From Serratia sarumanii (GTDB taxonomy: Bacteria > Pseudomonadota > Gammaproteobacteria > Enterobacterales > Enterobacteriaceae): 64,000 nt of DNA. Position 1 is the stretch's first letter. The number at the start of each line of letters is the position of its first letter. The translations under genes and the position numbers were made by a program. The notes beneath the pieces are model-generated. The model had not been told where the DNA came from, searched no databases, and saw nothing but the letters and a program-made list of their open reading frames with translations. Below are positions 43,863 through 50,850 of this stretch, in pieces. The DNA lies in NCBI RefSeq assembly GCF_029962605.1, contig NZ_CP124750.1, positions 496,001 through 560,000 on the forward strand, read 5' to 3'.

Positions 43863-44555
43863 TCAGCCGGAGCCGGCGATGCGGCTGTAATAGGCCTGCT
43901 TCATCATGCTGTCGTTCAGCAATTTATTGATGGTCTGGTCGAGCACCGGCGTGGTGACGGAGGCCGGCATCAGCGTGGCGGTGATCTCCACGTCGTCGTC
44001 GCCGAAGGGTTCGATATCCAGATGCGAGATAAAGCAGTTTTCCCCTTGCAGCACCTGTTTGAATTTGGCCAGCGCCTCACGCTGCTCATGCTCGAAGGCA
44101 ATGACGCAAATCTGGTAGGTAGACTCGCCGTTAACGTCATTGAAGGGCTGTTTGTTGACCATATTGACCAGCGGGCGCAACAGGGTGTTGGCGGCGAGCA
44201 CAAACAGCGTGGCAGCCAGCGCATCACCGTACAGGCCGCAGCCGGCGCAGGCGCCGACCGCTGCGGAGCCCCAGAGCGTGGCGGCGGTATTCAGGCCGCG
44301 GATGTTCATCCCTTCCTTCATGATGGCCCCAGCGCCGAGAAAGCCGACGCCGGAGACCACGTAGGAGATGACGCGCACCGCGCCGCCGCTGCCGTCGATG
44401 GTCATGGCCAGATGGACGAAGATCGCCGCGCTGGTGGCCACCAGCGTGTTGGTGCACAGCCCGGCGGTGCGCTGGCGGAACTGTCTTTCGTAGCCGATGG
44501 CGGCGCCCAGGACGGACGCGGTCAGCAGCGTCAGCAGTGTATGAATGAAATGCAT
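43863..44555 (-). CDS. MgtC/SapB-family membrane protein
   Basis: The protein is 230 residues from the ATG at 44555 (MHFIHTLLT); the frame extends 13 codons further but without ribosome site or conservation. The family signature ASVLGAAIGYERQFRQRTAGLCTNTL is at residues 9-34. Four or five TM helices fill the first 130 residues, followed by a soluble ACT-like C-terminal domain (about 150-230). Named MgtC proteins inhibit ATP synthase or act in magnesium and virulence physiology, but many SapB-type relatives are uncharacterised. It follows an ABC ATPase gene by 112 nt. Co-occurrence with an anion-type ABC system is unusual. Confidence 0.87.
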   Translation of the reverse strand: MHFIHTLLTLLTASVLGAAIGYERQFRQRTAGLCTNTLVATSAAIFVHLAMTIDGSGGAVRVISYVVSGVGFLGAGAIMKEGMNIRGLNTAATLWGSAAVGACAGCGLYGDALAATLFVLAANTLLRPLVNMVNKQPFNDVNGESTYQICVIAFEHEQREALAKFKQVLQGENCFISHLDIEPFGDDDVEITATLMPASVTTPVLDQTINKLLNDSMMKQAYYSRIAGSG

Positions 44556-44667
44556 GATAATAACTCGATGTATTATCCGCTTATCATGAGCCACCCGTGG
44601 CGGGGTAACTCTTGATAAACAGGTAGTTAAGTTGGCGGGGTTCCGTCCCGCCAGGCCAGGGCGGCGC

Positions 44668-45447
44668 TCAGTGCGCGGCGGCGATCTGCCGGCTGAGCGT
44701 CTCGCTGATTTTGTCCGTCAGCGGCTGCATCCCCTCGCGGGTGCGCGCCTCGCGGCGCTGCGTGATGTGATAGCAGCCGTCGAGGGTGCCGGCGCCCAGC
44801 AGGAGGATGCGGTCAGACATCATCACCGCCTCCTCTACGCTGTGGGTGACCAGCACGATGGAGCGGGTTTTGATTTGGCGCGTGCTCCAGATGCGCAGCA
44901 GATCGCTGCGCAGGTGTTCGCCGGTATAGACGTCCAGCGCGGAAAAGGGCTCGTCCAGCAACAGCAGCATCGGTTCTACCGCCAGCGCGCGCGCGAAGCC
45001 GACCCGCTGGCGCATGCCGCCGGAAAGCTCGCGCGGGTAAGCGTCGCGGTAGGGCGTGAGCCCGACCAGATCGAGCATTTTCAGCGTCTGGGCTTCGACC
45101 ACCTGAGGCGGCAGATCCTGCGCCTGCAGCCCGAAGGCGATATTTTGGTAAACGTTCAGCCACGGGAAAATGGCGAAGGTCTGGAACACCATGTTGATCT
45201 GCGGATTCGGCCCCGAGACTTTTTTATCCCCCAGCATCACGGTGCCCAGATCCGGCGCGATCAGGCCGGAAAGCATGCGCAGCAGGGTGGATTTACCCGA
45301 GCCGGACTGCCCCAAAATGCTGACGACCTCGTTGTCGTAAAGGCGCAAATTGATTTCATTCAGCAACAGACGTTTTTCTTTACCGGTAGGCTGAACGCTT
45401 TTGCTGACGTTATTGACCGTCAGCAGCGTGGTTTTTTTTACCAACAT
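44668..45447 (-). CDS. NitT/TauT-type ABC transporter ATPase (second)
   Basis: The protein is 259 residues from the ATG at 45447 (MLVKKTTLLTVNNVS) with GGAGA upstream. Further in-frame starts up to 45534 are less likely. Walker A is GQSGSGKST, signature LSGGMRQRVGFARAL and Walker B LLLLDEPFSALD. It belongs with SsuB/TauB/NrtD ATPases. No permease is encoded beside it, so it probably pairs with the duplicated permease upstream, giving a heterodimeric motor with the other ATPase. It is preceded by its own leader ORF and hairpins. Confidence 0.87.
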   Translation of the reverse strand: MLVKKTTLLTVNNVSKSVQPTGKEKRLLLNEINLRLYDNEVVSILGQSGSGKSTLLRMLSGLIAPDLGTVMLGDKKVSGPNPQINMVFQTFAIFPWLNVYQNIAFGLQAQDLPPQVVEAQTLKMLDLVGLTPYRDAYPRELSGGMRQRVGFARALAVEPMLLLLDEPFSALDVYTGEHLRSDLLRIWSTRQIKTRSIVLVTHSVEEAVMMSDRILLLGAGTLDGCYHITQRREARTREGMQPLTDKISETLSRQIAAAH

Positions 45448-45664: not shown

Positions 45665-45707
45665 ATCCTGACACTTTCAGGATGCAATGGGATGACTATT
45701 GCTCCTG
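45665..45707 (-). ncRNA. leader RNA 2: competing stem-loops over the micro-ORF stop
   Basis: Stem A pairs 45678-45682 with 45703-45707 and, after a 1-nt bulge, 45684-45688 with 45698-45702, a 10-bp stem with a 9-nt loop. It covers the micro-ORF stop codon (45696-45698). Stem B pairs 45665-45670 with 45678-45683 (6 bp, 7-nt loop) and shares an arm with stem A, so the two exclude each other. The loop of stem A carries CATCC on the transcribed strand. The same layout occurs in leader 1 with different bases. Confidence 0.65.
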
Positions 45708-45758
45708 TGACCTCAGCGATTCCAACAATAAAATAAACAACCAACTGTCGCCGTCCAT
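45696..45758 (-). CDS. micro-ORF, 20-residue leader peptide 2
   Basis: The peptide MDGDSWLFILLLESLRSQEQ starts at an ATG (45758) with GGGAGA about 5 nt upstream and a good sigma70 promoter 30 nt further. It resembles leader peptide 1 (17 residues): an acidic N-terminus, then S-aromatic-x-F-x-L-x-L. The stop codon falls inside a stem-loop. The next gene, the second ABC ATPase, starts 248 nt downstream, so this is a leader rather than a fused start. A regulatory role by ribosome position on the leader is inferred. It is too short for family assignment. Confidence 0.6.
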   Translation of the reverse strand: MDGDSWLFILLLESLRSQEQ

Positions 45759-45817: not shown

Positions 45818-45998
45818 TGTGGTTACGCCGAATTATGGCGGCAAAATGTAATTTAATATGAATGCGGGAAAGATTTTCTTTATTCATTAAACGGGGCGTA
45901 AACGGAAGGCGCGAGAATGAATATAGGCATCATTTTATGGAAATATAAACCTGAATTAAACGAGAGAATAAGAGGCCAGCGGAAAGTCACATAATAAA

Positions 45999-46032: not shown

Positions 46033-47115
46033 TCAGAACTGATACATGATGCCGGTTTCGACGATGTCGTCGGCGCCGGCGCCGACGGCGTTCTGCCGTT
46101 GCAGCAGGTTGAGTTTGTACTCTACGTAGGTCGACATGTTGGCGTTGAAGCTGTAATTCAGCGCCAGATCCAGGTATTTGACCAGATCGGCGTTGCCAAT
46201 GCCGGGCAGGTTGCGGCCGCGCGTTTGCAGGTAGGCCACCGAGGGCGTGACGCCGGAATCGAAGTGATACTGCGCGACCGCCTCAATAGCGTCCGCGCGG
46301 GGGGCGAAGCCGGCGTAGCGATCGCCGTCGACGTAGGTCATGTTCTCGGTGCGCGCGTAGCTTGCCGCCAGGTAGAGGTTGTCCTGGTCGTATTTCAGCC
46401 CCAGCGTCCAGGCCCGGGCGCGATCGCCGTCAGCCAGGCCGAAGCGCTGTTGCGCCAGCGTGCGCGCAGAGTTGGCGTAAGCGGCGCCAACGTTGAGCCC
46501 CACGCCGGTGTCGTAGGTGGCGGAAAAGGCGTAGCCATCGCCGTTTTGCGTCTGGATATCCTTCGCCCGTTGAGCGTCGTCCCCCCGATTCTTCCCCTGA
46601 TATTGCAGGCCGAGATCCAGGCCGTCGACCAGACCACCCAGGCTGCGGCTGTGGTAGGTCAGCAGGCCGTTGGCGCGGCCGGTCATAAAGTTGTCGGCCG
46701 CTTCGTAGCTGTCGTTGCCGAATTCAGGCAGCACGTCCGTCCAGCCGGCCACGTCATACAGCAGGCCGTAGTTGCGGCCGTAATCCAGGCTGCCCCAGTG
46801 GCCGAACGTCAATCCGGCGAAGCCCAGGCGGGTATAGCTGTCGCCCGGCCCGGCGCTTTCCGGCTGATTAAGCCCTGCCTGATATTCCCATTGGCCATAC
46901 CCCGTCAGCGCGTCGCCGATCTGCGTCTCGCCTTTGAAACCGAAGCGGGTATAGGAGCGGTCGCCGTTATTGCCGGCGTCGCTGCTGAAGTAATGCACGC
47001 CGTTCAGTTGGCCGTACAGATCCAGTTTATTGCCGTCTTTATTGACGATTTCCGCGCCGGTGGCGGCCGCCGGCAGCAGGATGACCAGCGTCATCAGCAC
47101 GCTTTTATGGTTCAT
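46033..47115 (-). CDS. OmpC/OmpF-type general porin
   Basis: The protein is 360 residues from the ATG at 47115 (MNHKSVLMTL) with GGGGAA upstream. The frame runs on to 47385, but that part overlaps the ATPase gene. The signal peptide ends near ATGA-EIVNKDG. The trimeric-porin start EIVNKDGNKLDLYGQLNGVHYFS and the loop-3 region with GRNYGLLYDVAGWTDVLPEFG are present, and it ends in the C-terminal YQF aromatic terminus. It follows the ABC ATPase by 32 nt, so it is probably a dedicated outer-membrane entry for the transporter's substrate. Confidence 0.9.
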   Translation of the reverse strand: MNHKSVLMTLVILLPAAATGAEIVNKDGNKLDLYGQLNGVHYFSSDAGNNGDRSYTRFGFKGETQIGDALTGYGQWEYQAGLNQPESAGPGDSYTRLGFAGLTFGHWGSLDYGRNYGLLYDVAGWTDVLPEFGNDSYEAADNFMTGRANGLLTYHSRSLGGLVDGLDLGLQYQGKNRGDDAQRAKDIQTQNGDGYAFSATYDTGVGLNVGAAYANSARTLAQQRFGLADGDRARAWTLGLKYDQDNLYLAASYARTENMTYVDGDRYAGFAPRADAIEAVAQYHFDSGVTPSVAYLQTRGRNLPGIGNADLVKYLDLALNYSFNANMSTYVEYKLNLLQRQNAVGAGADDIVETGIMYQF

Positions 47116-47147
47116 TTCAGTTCCCCAAGTGGATGAAAACAGGGCCG

Positions 47148-47939
47148 TTAACCGGCCGATTGCGCTTGCGCGATTTTTTTGTACAGGCAGCTGCGGATCC
47201 GATCGGTGAGGTGCCGCAGGCTGTCCCGGCTGCGCGCCGCACGCGGGATATTGACGCTGAACTCGTCGTCGATCCGTTTGCTGGTCGCGTCCAGGATCAG
47301 CACCCGATCGGACATCAGCACCGCTTCTTCGACGTCGTGTGTCACCATCACCATGGCGCGCGTGCGCAGCCGGTTGTCTCCCCACAGCGCCAGCAGGTCG
47401 CCCCGCAGTTTTTGCGCGGTAAAGATATCGAGGGCGGAGAAGGGTTCGTCCAGCAGCAAGAGATCGGGCTCTACCGCCAACGCCCGGGCGAAGCCCACCC
47501 GTTGACGCATGCCGCCCGAGAGCTCGCGCGGCCAGGCGTGCTCATAGCCGGTCAGGCCCACCAGGCGCAGCAGCGCTCCCAGCCGCTCGGCGATCGTCTG
47601 CGGCGGCAGCCGTTGCGCCAGCAGGCCGAAGGCGATGTTGTCGTACACCGTTAGCCAGGGATAGAGCGCGTAGGACTGAAACACCATGCCGACGTTGGCG
47701 CTCGGGCCGTCGACCGGTTTGCCCGCCAGCGTGAGCGTGCCGCTGTCCGGTGGGATCAGCCCGGCCAGCATGCGCAGCAGCGTGGACTTGCCCGAGCCGG
47801 ATTGCCCCAGAATGGTGACGAACTCGCCGGCGTGCACGGTCAGCGTCACGTCGCGCAGCACGGGTTTGGGGCGCTTGTTTTCGCCGATAAACGTCTTGTT
47901 CAGCCGGCTGGCGCTGATAATTACCTCTTGAGTCAGCAT
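47148..47939 (-). CDS. NitT/TauT-type ABC transporter ATPase (first)
   Basis: The 263-residue protein has Walker A GQSGSGKST near residue 46, signature LSGGMRQRVGFARAL and Walker B DLLLLDEPFSALD. Its ATG has AAGGGGG upstream and lies 15 nt after the stop of the duplicated permease, so the two make one transporter. It is similar to, but clearly diverged from, the second ATPase in this block. The family serves nitrate, sulfonates, taurine, bicarbonate or thiamine-precursor uptake; the substrate is not evident. Confidence 0.9.
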   Translation of the reverse strand: MLTQEVIISASRLNKTFIGENKRPKPVLRDVTLTVHAGEFVTILGQSGSGKSTLLRMLAGLIPPDSGTLTLAGKPVDGPSANVGMVFQSYALYPWLTVYDNIAFGLLAQRLPPQTIAERLGALLRLVGLTGYEHAWPRELSGGMRQRVGFARALAVEPDLLLLDEPFSALDIFTAQKLRGDLLALWGDNRLRTRAMVMVTHDVEEAVLMSDRVLILDATSKRIDDEFSVNIPRAARSRDSLRHLTDRIRSCLYKKIAQAQSAG

Positions 47940-47954: not shown

Positions 47955-49676
47955 TCAGTCATATTTGAATTTGGTTTCCGCGATGCGATACAGCGGTTGC
48001 CAGACGAAGATGATGCACAGCGCCACCAGCGCGCACATGGCGGCGCAGCCCAGCGCGGACTCCGGGTTCTTGCCGGCGTCGGTGACGACGGAAATAAACG
48101 CGCCCAGCCCGGTGGCGCTGAGGGTGGTGCTGCCCCACTGGATCACCTCGGCGGCGATGGCGCTGTTCCAGGCGCCGCCGGCGGCGGAGATGATGCCCGT
48201 CACGATGTAGGGGAAAATCGCCGGCAGCATGTAGTAGCGCCACCAGCGGAAGCGGCGCAGCCCGAAGGTTTCGCTGACCTCGGTGATCTGCGTTGGAATG
48301 GCGGATACGCCGGCGATCACGTTAAACAACACGTACCACTGGGTGCCCAGCATGATCATCGGGATGGCCCACCAGCCGAGATCCTGATGATAAATGGCGA
48401 TGAAGGCGGCGATCAGCGGGTAGAAAATGTTGGGCGGAATGGCCGCCAGGATCTGGATGATCGGCTGGAAGATCTTCACCAGCCGCGGATTCATGCCGAT
48501 CCACACCCCCAGCGGCGTGAAGATCGCCACGCTGAGCAGCATGGCCGCGGCCACGCGCGCGGTGGTGAGCAGCATCCATTCCGGCAGCATGGCGAAGTAC
48601 TGTTTGGGGAAGTATTCCCACAGCCGGTAACCGAACCAGACGCAGGCCAGCACCACGCCGAGATACCACAGGCTGCGCCACAGCCAGTTCCCCTTGGCGG
48701 CGAGCCTGAACAGGCGGTGCAGGCCGAGGGCGTACCACAGCCGCGGCAGCTTGAACAGCCACAGGTCAGCCAGCGCGCGCAGCGTGTGGCCCAGCGCCGC
48801 GCCGACGTGCGAAAAGGCCAGACTGTTGTAGAACCACGGATTGCCGAGCGGCCGGCTGGCGGTGACGTCTTCGTATTTGAAGCGCGCGGTATAGCGCACC
48901 AGCGGGCGGAAAACCAGCTGATCGAGCAGCACGATGTTCGCGGCCAGCGCGACGATCGCATACAGGATCGCCGGCACGTTCTGCTGCGCCAGCGCTTCGG
49001 CGATGTAGGAGCCGACGCCGGGCAGTTCGACCGAGCGATCGCCGACCGGAATGGCTTCGGAGGCCACCAGGGCGAACCAGGCGGCGGATTGCGACACCAT
49101 GGCGTTCCACAGCAGGCCCGGCACCGAATAGATGAACTCCAGCCGCCAGAAGCGTTGCCACGGGTTGTAATTGAAGCTGCGGGCGGCTTCATCCAGCTCC
49201 TTGGGCACGATGCGCAGCGTCTGATACAGCGTCAGCATCATGTTCCAGGCCTGGCCGGTAAACACCGCGAAGATGGCGGTGCACTCCAGCCCCATCACGC
49301 TGTGCGGGTAGAGGTTGAGAAAATACACGGTCGTGAAGGTCAGGAACCCTACCAGCGGCACCGACTCCATAAAGTTGACGAAGGGCAGGATCACCCGGCG
49401 CAGTGGCGTATAGCGTGCGGCCAGCACGGCGAATACTACAGAAAACAGCAGCGACCAGGCCATGCCGAGGAGAAAGCGCATGCTGGTTCTGAGCGAATAA
49501 TAAAGCAGGTTCCAGGCATCAAGACTAATGGCAGAGACGTTTTGTTCATTGAAGTCACCGTGCATGTCACCCCAGGCACGAATAAAAAAGGCAATGAAAA
49601 AAACACCGATGGCGATAACGATAAAGTCATTTAAATAAGACTTTCTGAAAACAGATGTACCCCGGTTATTTTGCAT
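47955..49676 (-). CDS. ABC permease with two fused BPD domains (duplicated anion-type permease)
   Basis: The protein is 573 residues from the ATG at 49676 (MQNNRGTSVF), with AAGG 9 nt upstream; an ATG at 49700 would add eight residues. There are two permease modules. Module 1 spans about 70-290, with EAA-type loop ELDEAARSFNYNPWQRFWRL. Module 2 spans about 370-570, with EAA loop ITEVSETFGLRRFRWWRYY. A cytoplasmic linker joins them. This matches COG4986-like duplicated permeases of the NitT/TauT class, so one polypeptide supplies both channel halves. No periplasmic binding protein is encoded in the block. Confidence 0.88.
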   Translation of the reverse strand: MQNNRGTSVFRKSYLNDFIVIAIGVFFIAFFIRAWGDMHGDFNEQNVSAISLDAWNLLYYSLRTSMRFLLGMAWSLLFSVVFAVLAARYTPLRRVILPFVNFMESVPLVGFLTFTTVYFLNLYPHSVMGLECTAIFAVFTGQAWNMMLTLYQTLRIVPKELDEAARSFNYNPWQRFWRLEFIYSVPGLLWNAMVSQSAAWFALVASEAIPVGDRSVELPGVGSYIAEALAQQNVPAILYAIVALAANIVLLDQLVFRPLVRYTARFKYEDVTASRPLGNPWFYNSLAFSHVGAALGHTLRALADLWLFKLPRLWYALGLHRLFRLAAKGNWLWRSLWYLGVVLACVWFGYRLWEYFPKQYFAMLPEWMLLTTARVAAAMLLSVAIFTPLGVWIGMNPRLVKIFQPIIQILAAIPPNIFYPLIAAFIAIYHQDLGWWAIPMIMLGTQWYVLFNVIAGVSAIPTQITEVSETFGLRRFRWWRYYMLPAIFPYIVTGIISAAGGAWNSAIAAEVIQWGSTTLSATGLGAFISVVTDAGKNPESALGCAAMCALVALCIIFVWQPLYRIAETKFKYD

Positions 49677-49836
49677 AACGCAATACCTTATTTTTCCCAT
49701 AAGAAATCCGTCGGCGCTCGGGGAATATGCCCGGCGACACCAGATAAATACCGCCGTAGCGGTTGAGACAGACGTTGTTTTCGCAGCGGGGCGATGGGTG
49801 GGCCGGCAGAGTGGGAAAGGCCGTCAGAAGGGGAGC

Positions 49837-49891
49837 GGTTGCCGCATTCCGTGTCTTTCAGAATGCAACCTGGATGGCATTACTGAAAGAC
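49837..49891 (-). ncRNA. leader RNA 1: competing stem-loops over the micro-ORF stop
   Basis: Stem A pairs 49853-49861 with 49883-49891 (9 bp). After one bulged base, it continues as 49862-49866 with 49877-49881 (5 bp) around a 10-nt loop. It covers the last codons and stop of the micro-ORF. Stem B pairs 49844-49849 with 49861-49866, extended by 49837-49840 with 49867-49870. B reuses an arm of A, so only one can form. The transcribed loop of A contains CATCC, as in leader 2. There is no T-tract, so translation or processing control is as likely as transcription attenuation. Confidence 0.7.
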
Positions 49892-49933
49892 GCCCAATAG
49901 CATTAGCGTAAAACTAAAACTTTCATCGCCCAT
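49880..49933 (-). CDS. micro-ORF, 17-residue leader peptide 1
   Basis: The peptide MGDESFSFTLMLLGVFQ starts at the ATG at 49933. A strong AGGAGG lies five nt upstream, better than those of most genes around it, which argues that it is translated. Its last three codons and stop lie in the 5' arm of stem A. It is related to leader peptide 2 upstream of the second ATPase. The duplicated-permease gene starts about 200 nt downstream. No function is known. Confidence 0.65.
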   Translation of the reverse strand: MGDESFSFTLMLLGVFQ

Positions 49934-50123
49934 GGGGCCCTCCTCGGTTTAAATATGGCAGGGAAAGGGTAATGTTTTTCGCCAATAAAAAGCAATTGGC
50001 GCCGCGCGGTTTTTACGGTTGATGTGTAACAGGATAAATATTCATTTTTTAATCGCTATATCCGGAAAATAAAATAACGCATTGTGGTGGCGATAAAGAC
50101 GGAAAAAATAAATCGCGGCGAAA

Positions 50124-50160: not shown

Positions 50161-50850
50161 TCAATAAACCTGCCTGCCGTTGATGCCGGCGGGGAAAATG
50201 CCGGTGGCGAAAATATGCCCGTTGGCCTGGATCTGGTCGTCGGGCAGCATCTCCAGCGGGAACTCGCCCGCCAGGCAGTTGAGAAAGGCATTGCGATCGT
50301 CGGTGGTGGTAAAGCCAATCAGATCGTAGAACAGCAGCGACGCGATCAGCTGGCGATGTTCCGGGATGCGCCGCAGCAGCGCCGCCGACGGGAACGGCAG
50401 GTGGAAGAAAAACGCGCAGGCGTTAAGCAGCCCTTGCTCCTTCAGCGCCTGGGCGCAGGGCAGCAGCTGGTAGTCGTCGATGCAGACGATGTCGCCGGGG
50501 CACAGGTGCTCGCAGGCGATATCGGCAAACCGGCGGTTCAGCTGCCGATAGGCGCGGTAGTTTTCCGGCGTGAAGTGCGCCTTCTCCGGCTGGTTGTGGA
50601 ACACCGGCCACAGGCCGTCGTGGTAATAGCCCTGATAGTGGCGGCGAAACTCCTCGATCGACAGCGGAAAGGTCACCTGATCGTAACCGGCGCGCTGCCG
50701 GCAGCTGATCGGGCGCTGCGCGAAATTCTGCACGTCGCCGTTCCAGCCGAGCCACAGCCCCGGTTCGGCATCGGTCGCCAGCGTCTGGCCGGCGCAGGCC
50801 AGATCCTTACCGTCGCACTGCTTGTTGGAAATCAGCACTAAACGAGACAT
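50161..50850 (-). CDS. stand-alone N-terminal half of a GT20 trehalose-6-phosphate synthase-like protein
   Basis: The protein has 229 residues, against about 470 for OtsA. It aligns with the OtsA N-terminal Rossmann domain from the first residue (MSRLVLISNKQ) and includes GLWLGWNG, GLWPVFH, DDYQLLP and FFFHLPFPSAALL. It stops at the point where the UDP-glucose-binding C-terminal domain should begin (FPAGINGRQVY). A terminator follows at once, and no downstream frame continues the homology, so this is not a recent frameshift. OtsA SNR reads SNK here and HDYH reads DDYQ, so normal catalysis is unlikely. It is coupled to GNAT and glutamine-synthetase-like genes. Function unknown. Confidence 0.75.
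   Translation of the reverse strand: MSRLVLISNKQCDGKDLACAGQTLATDAEPGLWLGWNGDVQNFAQRPISCRQRAGYDQVTFPLSIEEFRRHYQGYYHDGLWPVFHNQPEKAHFTPENYRAYRQLNRRFADIACEHLCPGDIVCIDDYQLLPCAQALKEQGLLNACAFFFHLPFPSAALLRRIPEHRQLIASLLFYDLIGFTTTDDRNAFLNCLAGEFPLEMLPDDQIQANGHIFATGIFPAGINGRQVY

Follow-up and report, generated by a model that had tools for sequence, protein, structure and literature searches.

Short upstream open reading frames (uORFs) linked to Mg2+ are known, in the published accounts considered here, before mgtA, mgtB, mgtC and corA. Acidic residues placed early in a nascent peptide are described as causing ribosome pausing or dissociation, more strongly at low Mg2+ in the case of mgtL, and full reading of mgtL is described as allowing Rho to act (PMC11282234); E. 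coli mgtA is reported to show no Rho effect (PMC11552253). mgtQ is stated to require its Asp2 and Glu5, and its loss lowers expression, a direction opposite to that of mgtL (PMC8092293). As to mgtM, stop codons that shorten the uORF below seven codons lead, according to the account given, to derepression (PMC3641672). Finally, corL, the leader of corA, combines a uORF with exclusive structures that set Rho termination; it is likened to the present leaders from its description and guards another class of gene.

The window analysed here, the whole stretch of 64 kb, contains two leaders on its (-) strand: leader 1, which precedes a fused ABC permease, and leader 2, which is followed by the genes of a second ABC ATPase (ATPase 2) and of an MgtC-family protein. 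Our preferred reading, held with moderate confidence, is that leader 1 would be a translation-coupled, Mg2+-sensing switch of the MgtL/MgtQ kind, and that leader 2 would play the same part for ATPase 2 and MgtC.

Reading frame and competing stems of leader 1

The initial annotation had described a 17-codon uORF with an AGGAGG site, ending in a 14-bp stem with one bulge, and translation of 49960-49830 (-) agrees with this description. The uORF, MGDESFSFTLMLLGVFQ followed by its stop codon (49880..49933, -), carries acidic residues at positions 3 and 4; its ATG is at 49933-49931 and its TAA at 49882-49880. The ribosome binding site AGGAGG (49939..49944, -), seen in the sequence and in an alignment over 11 genomes, is separated from the ATG by 5 bases. 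The 5' arm of stem 1 (49877..49891, -), made up of the end of the uORF, the stop codon and the next 3 bases, pairs with a 3' arm at 49853..49866 (-), giving 14 pairs with U49882 bulged. A second stem sharing an arm with the first had also been proposed, and it is indeed present: the 5' arm of stem 2 (49859..49869, -) forms 11 pairs with its 3' arm (49841..49851, -), 49869-49859 facing 49851-49841, and bases 49866-49859 are common to both stems. As the 3' arm of stem 1 is for the most part the 5' arm of stem 2, the two stems are mutually exclusive.

Stem 2 alone has a folding energy of -14.3 kcal/mol (z -5.75, 0/200 shuffles as good) and the 55-nt stretch containing stem 1 has a z of -2.51 (4/200 shuffles as good), both stretches having been cut by choice around the stems. 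When folding is unconstrained, leader 1 of the window adopts stem 1, and those of PL17 and of G409, a genome of another genus, adopt stem 2. Since the latter two already favour stem 2, their stem 1 would need to arise co-transcriptionally, before stem 2. When the stop codon is covered together with the 12 bases that follow it, mimicking a ribosome positioned there, all three versions (window, PL17 and G409) adopt stem 2. In a duplex-energy test against shuffles, made on 16 rows of which two, G409 leader 2 and Rickettsiella, were excluded, stem 1 beats chance for PL17 leader 1 (1/300), for the mgtA leader of the same genome as the window (3/300) and for window leader 1 (21/300); it does not for Rahnella (103/300 and 70/300) or for window leader 2 (121/300).

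Leader 1 has neither the run of control codons nor the U-tailed terminator of a classical amino-acid attenuator. No U run follows stem 2, and the end of this stem lies ~165 nt before the permease start codon, which makes an intrinsic terminator less likely, and likewise a direct masking of the ribosome site. A promoter scan near leader 1 gives no promoter-like site, and a terminator scan gives one weak terminator-like site, away from stem 2 and within chance. Neither leader has a relevant match among the Rfam covariance models (two chance matches fall elsewhere), and RF02887 (mgtC_leader) matches neither of them. Behind stem 2 extends a C-rich, G-poor stretch (49761..49838, -; C 49%, G 17%), a possible Rho loading site judging from its composition. 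Across the permease-porin genes, none of the 78-nt windows matches its bias of C over G; in G409 leader 1 the bias is weak, 6.5% of 78-nt windows being as biased.

Conservation of the leaders and of their relatives

Of 30 same-genus genomes, 11 contain leader 1 DNA, and exactly these 11 contain leader 2 DNA as well; they are the genomes whose permease shows an identity of 88% or more. In G409, both leaders accompany a permease 84% identical. The uORF is open in 12/12 leader 1 loci and in 12/12 leader 2 loci.

Covariation pair counts were made on leader 1, with 8 distinct rows, four of the 12 loci being duplicates in that stretch. In stem 1, 3/14 pairs are changed on both sides and the covariation score of the 8 rows is above that of 500/500 shuffles; one outer pair is broken in 4/8 rows and another in 2/8. 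In stem 2, 98.9% of cells are paired over the 8 rows, and the one pair changed on both sides is, taken alone, within chance (66/500 shuffles). In leader 1 of G409, the base of the shared arm at column 68 has changed from G to A, its partner in stem 1 (column 57) from C to U, and its partner in stem 2 (column 90) also from C to U. This triple change is telling, as it is just what two real, exclusive stems demand, albeit in one lineage. The initial annotation had named, as evidence against a regulatory role, a lack of compensatory changes and the loss of the frame and ribosome site; neither is seen, compensatory changes being present in leader 1 and the uORF frame and ribosome site being kept.

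It could be argued that the ORF and stems are functionless and arose by chance, as the folding energy of the whole 274-nt leader 1 is unremarkable (z -1.73, 11/200 shuffles) and 10 of the 12 leader 1 loci come from close relatives. The joint changes in G409, the conserved frame and site, the existence of a second leader and the recurrence of the same scheme in other genera nevertheless make this explanation very improbable.

The conservation of the leader 1 peptide bears on another explanation, namely an arrest peptide of TnaC-like kind, in which a small molecule, possibly the substrate of the transporter, would be sensed and make the ribosome stall close to the stop codon, its position there selecting the stem. 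The stop codon does lie inside a stem arm, covering it together with the next 12 bases leads to stem 2 in 3/3 leader 1 versions, and the peptide end, FQ before the stop codon, is kept in 12/12 leader 1 loci. However, the TTTCAG codons are invariant precisely where they form the stem arm, so that RNA pairing explains the conserved end; moreover, leader 2 peptides end in EQ or EA, and the feature that is kept is the start of the peptide. We thus consider an arrest peptide improbable. The proposal of the initial annotation that the ribosome decides which stem forms is supported as far as the competing stems are coupled to the uORF, but nothing points to stalling at the peptide end.

Leader 2 had been presented as a partner keeping the same architecture with different bases. 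The layout is indeed similar and the bases are different, but its fold alone is not beyond chance (z -0.67, 46/200). Its uORF, MDGDSWLFILLLESLRSQEQ followed by its stop codon (45696..45758, -), has acidic residues at positions 2 and 4. The 5' arm of its stem 1 (45698..45707, -) touches the stop codon, and the last six bases of the 3' arm (45678..45688, -) also belong to a hairpin, or stem 2 (45665..45683, -). This hairpin is compatible with the inner half of stem 1, so that the stems are only partly exclusive; in the fold of G409 leader 2, stem 1 is present and no clear hairpin is seen. An acidic start and a middle LL are common to the leader 1 and leader 2 peptides, and TGCAT(T/C)CTGAAAG is common to both RNAs in the window. 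A leader 1 covariance model, built on stem 2 only from 8 of the 12 loci (the rest being identical there), matches leader 2 of PL17 with an E of 0.014 and that of the window with an E of 0.83, and gives no match to G409 leader 2 up to an E of 10. As these matches are weak, layout and peptide count for more than the model in relating the two leaders. Leader 2 nevertheless looks like a diverged copy of leader 1, and the two are taken here as old duplicates serving one transport system.

Many matches of such a covariance model had been predicted; this expectation fails, since 4 of 392 family genomes are matched, at this locus only. These four are among the nine permease-bearing genomes of the 392-genome family sample, and the other five have other leaders.

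Permeases 58-64% identical are found in Rahnella, Izhakiella, Erwinia, a Rickettsiella-labelled MAG, Burkholderia and Neisseriales, and also in G227, G245, G296 and G328; a partial permease is present in a Pantoea locus (L072). In the group formed by Rahnella, Erwinia, Izhakiella and G227, a DEPPS uORF is found in 12/12 loci searched, with six distinct peptides, and its stop codon lies in a stem. In six aligned DEPPS leaders, the stem around UGA has 96.7% of cells paired, and a single pair has changed in both its bases, a level often attained by shuffles. When four of these leaders are folded with the stop codon covered, the 3' arm re-pairs downstream in Rahnella, ErVv1 and G227, but not in Izhakiella. 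In the Rickettsiella-labelled MAG, MDSDCSSRQQNIALQSVSSH precedes a strong hairpin, which is not kept in the fold with the stop codon covered. No acidic-pair uORF was seen by eye in the stretches upstream of the Burkholderia and Neisseriales orthologues.

Two other kinds of short ORFs are observed in these relatives. In Rahnella, Izhakiella, Erwinia and G227 (L062:4640, L064, L066, L068 and L083), the DEPPS uORF is separated from the permease by a second ORF of ~67-77 residues; this second ORF is variable, ends in (I/V)D(S/T/A)(L/I)(L/I)P before its stop codon, and its Rahnella copy has no Pfam match. Before the permease of the Neisseriales orthologues (L070:4645 and L071), short ORFs ending in PPSVS and PPSRS at the stop codon are seen by eye, and are perhaps polyproline leaders.

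Acidic starts, PhoP boxes and guarded genes

Residues 2-4 of the uORF read GDE, DDD or DDG in leader 1 and DGD, EGD or DTD in leader 2; at least two of them are acidic in 24/24 loci (12 leader 1 and 12 leader 2), and the PL17 leader 1 peptide starts MDDDI. These starts were compared with a background of 48 micro-ORFs (ATG, 12-25 residues, GGAG or GAGG site) drawn from the window and 11 further loci, 12 sources in all. An acidic pair, adjacent or one apart, occurs within the first five residues in 6/48 micro-ORFs, all six being leaders of this module, and in 0/70 longer ORFs; within the first ten residues, the counts are 12/48 micro-ORFs versus 3/70 longer ORFs. As the sources were chosen for holding the module, this count is a specificity check and gives no genome-wide rate.

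The genome's own Mg2+ leaders provide a further comparison. Its two Mg2+ P-type ATPase genes have the uORFs MDPDPTALDTHSVHR and MDDDPGREMILAWLTG; the second gene is directly behind mgtC, and we interpret it as mgtB and the other as mgtA. The leader peptide had been said to match no known one. This is not supported, as its acidic start is the mgtL/mgtQ motif, and the own mgtA-type and mgtB-type uORFs start MDPDP and MDDDP, respectively. The own mgtC leader matches RF02887 weakly (34.6 bits, for a gathering score of 48) and has a TTG uORF, MDSCSCNKTNKAS, with one early acidic residue only. A stem arm covers the uORF stop codon for the own mgtA and mgtC, but not for mgtB.

The acidic residues would be incidental if leader 1 responded to a loss of coupling between transcription and translation, as mgtM does with ATP, or to certain codons being read slowly. 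mgtM, as far as it is described, does follow the same scheme with a peptide that is not conserved. In leaders 1 and 2, however, the start remains acidic although its residues vary, and we regard this explanation as unlikely.

The PhoP box is given as (C/T/G)GTTTA-N5-(C/T/G)GTTTA in PMC3335776. A core pattern scan finds two exact cores in the 64-kb window, for 0.04 expected, the PhoP-box-like repeats GTTTAATTCAGGTTTA (45946..45961, -) and GTTTACGCCCCGTTTA (45888..45903, -), both between the terminator-like hairpin of the porin gene and leader 2. At the same place, PL17 has two exact copies and G409 one at 9/10. Over the whole genome, 14 exact cores are counted versus 8 for a reversed control, so that the pattern alone is weak; two of them precede phoP, one precedes mgtC and one a Kdo hydroxylase gene. 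The genes for the Kdo hydroxylase, a PAP2-like phosphatase and a TerC-like membrane protein, which are all preceded by exact cores, are candidate PhoP targets. In the other genera, six uORFs were scanned, the Rickettsiella row being left out, and five of them, all but that of G227, have a PhoP-like repeat (8-9/10) at a distance of 53-55 nt upstream. Taken one by one, most of these scores do not exceed chance (5 to 103 of 300 resamples), and it is only the common position of the repeats that is suggestive. No PhoP box is found at leader 1, where the best site (7/10) is at chance level; we therefore infer its link to Mg2+ from its acidic uORF and from its kinship with leader 2.

The gene behind leader 1 encodes a fused ABC permease (47955..49676, -) with two BPD_transp_1 stretches. 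The "duplicated ABC permease" of the initial annotation is right as to the doubling of the permease domain, but both stretches belong to one protein. Its ORF is listed from 49700; the ATG at 49676 is probably the actual start, because PL17 has an in-frame stop codon between the two starts and the proteins of other genera start MQK. Then come ABC ATPase 1 (47148..47939, -) and an OmpC/PhoE-type porin (46033..47118, -) followed by the terminator-like hairpin (46024-45999). Behind leader 2 are ABC ATPase 2 (44668..45447, -), ~52% identical to ATPase 1, and the MgtC-family gene (43863..44594, -), which has the PF02308 domain and scores 160 bits with NF011912, below the cut-off of 255. ATPase 2 and the MgtC-family gene are also present in PL17 and G409.

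Some variation and neighbouring genes may be recorded here. The porin gene between ATPase 1 and leader 2 is missing in the PL17 cluster and present in G409, and several genomes (G023:C1, G059:C54 and others) have a second fused permease, 38-43% identical. At 50161-50850 (-), a 229-residue protein matches trehalose-phosphate synthase (GT20) over the first half of that enzyme only, and its gene adjoins a glutamine-synthetase-like gene and a GNAT gene.

A possible Mg2+ switch and its known counterparts

In the preferred reading of leader 1 as an Mg2+-sensing switch, the ribosome would, at high Mg2+, read the uORF to its stop codon and melt stem 1, allowing stem 2 to form. The C-rich RNA behind stem 2 would then stay open, and Rho would probably stop transcription before the permease gene. 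At low cytosolic Mg2+, the acidic start residues would destabilise the ribosome and lead to early drop-off; stem 1, the presumed ON structure, would form and block stem 2, and transcription would proceed into the transporter genes. Leader 2 could act in the same way for ATPase 2 and MgtC, behind its PhoP boxes. The uORFs, the stems of leader 1 with their shared conservation, the acidic pairs and the PhoP-box-like repeats of leader 2 are observed in the sequences; Mg2+ as the signal, Rho as the effector and the assignment of the ON stem are proposed by analogy with the described leaders.

A broader proposal, which we put forward tentatively as possible rather than probable, is that the fused permease, the two ATPases, the porin and the MgtC homologue could form an unrecognised arm of the response to Mg2+ starvation, with paralogous translation-abort uORF switches on both units. 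Orthologous modules elsewhere would then keep the acidic-pair uORF and the stop codon in a stem despite the loss of sequence similarity. The same logic found twice before an ABC transporter would tie this transporter to Mg2+ starvation and offer a route to its function. The natural variants (GDE, DDD, DGD and DEPP) offer tests of which nascent peptides destabilise ribosomes. As a sequence model reaches only near relatives, such leaders could rather be sought by their acidic pair and the presence of the stop codon in a stem.

No report of these leaders or of their operon was found among the open-access papers searched. Among the described systems, mgtL, the leader of mgtA in Salmonella and E. 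coli, shares with leader 1 a short uORF, early acidic residues, alternative RNA structures and a role in Mg2+ homeostasis (PMC11282234; PMC11552253), but guards a P-type Mg2+ ATPase gene, whereas leader 1 precedes an ABC transporter. mgtM, in the mgtCBR leader (RF02887), is a uORF before mgtC, an early stop in which derepresses; it is reported to read ATP through adenines (PMC3641672), and leaders 1 and 2 have no RF02887 match. The closest uORF is that of mgtQ, between mgtC and mgtB of Salmonella, which is described with AGGAGG, Asp2, Glu5 and stems 1:2 and 2:3 overlapping the uORF (PMC8092293), and whose counterpart in the present genome starts MDDDP, to be compared with the MDDDI of PL17 leader 1. 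According to the same description, mgtQ regulates translation, masking the ribosome site of mgtB (PMC8092293), whereas stem 2 of leader 1 ends far ahead of the start codon. The kind of leader is thus known, being Mg2+-linked and controlled by a uORF with alternative stems; what is new is these members, their pairing and the gene that they guard.
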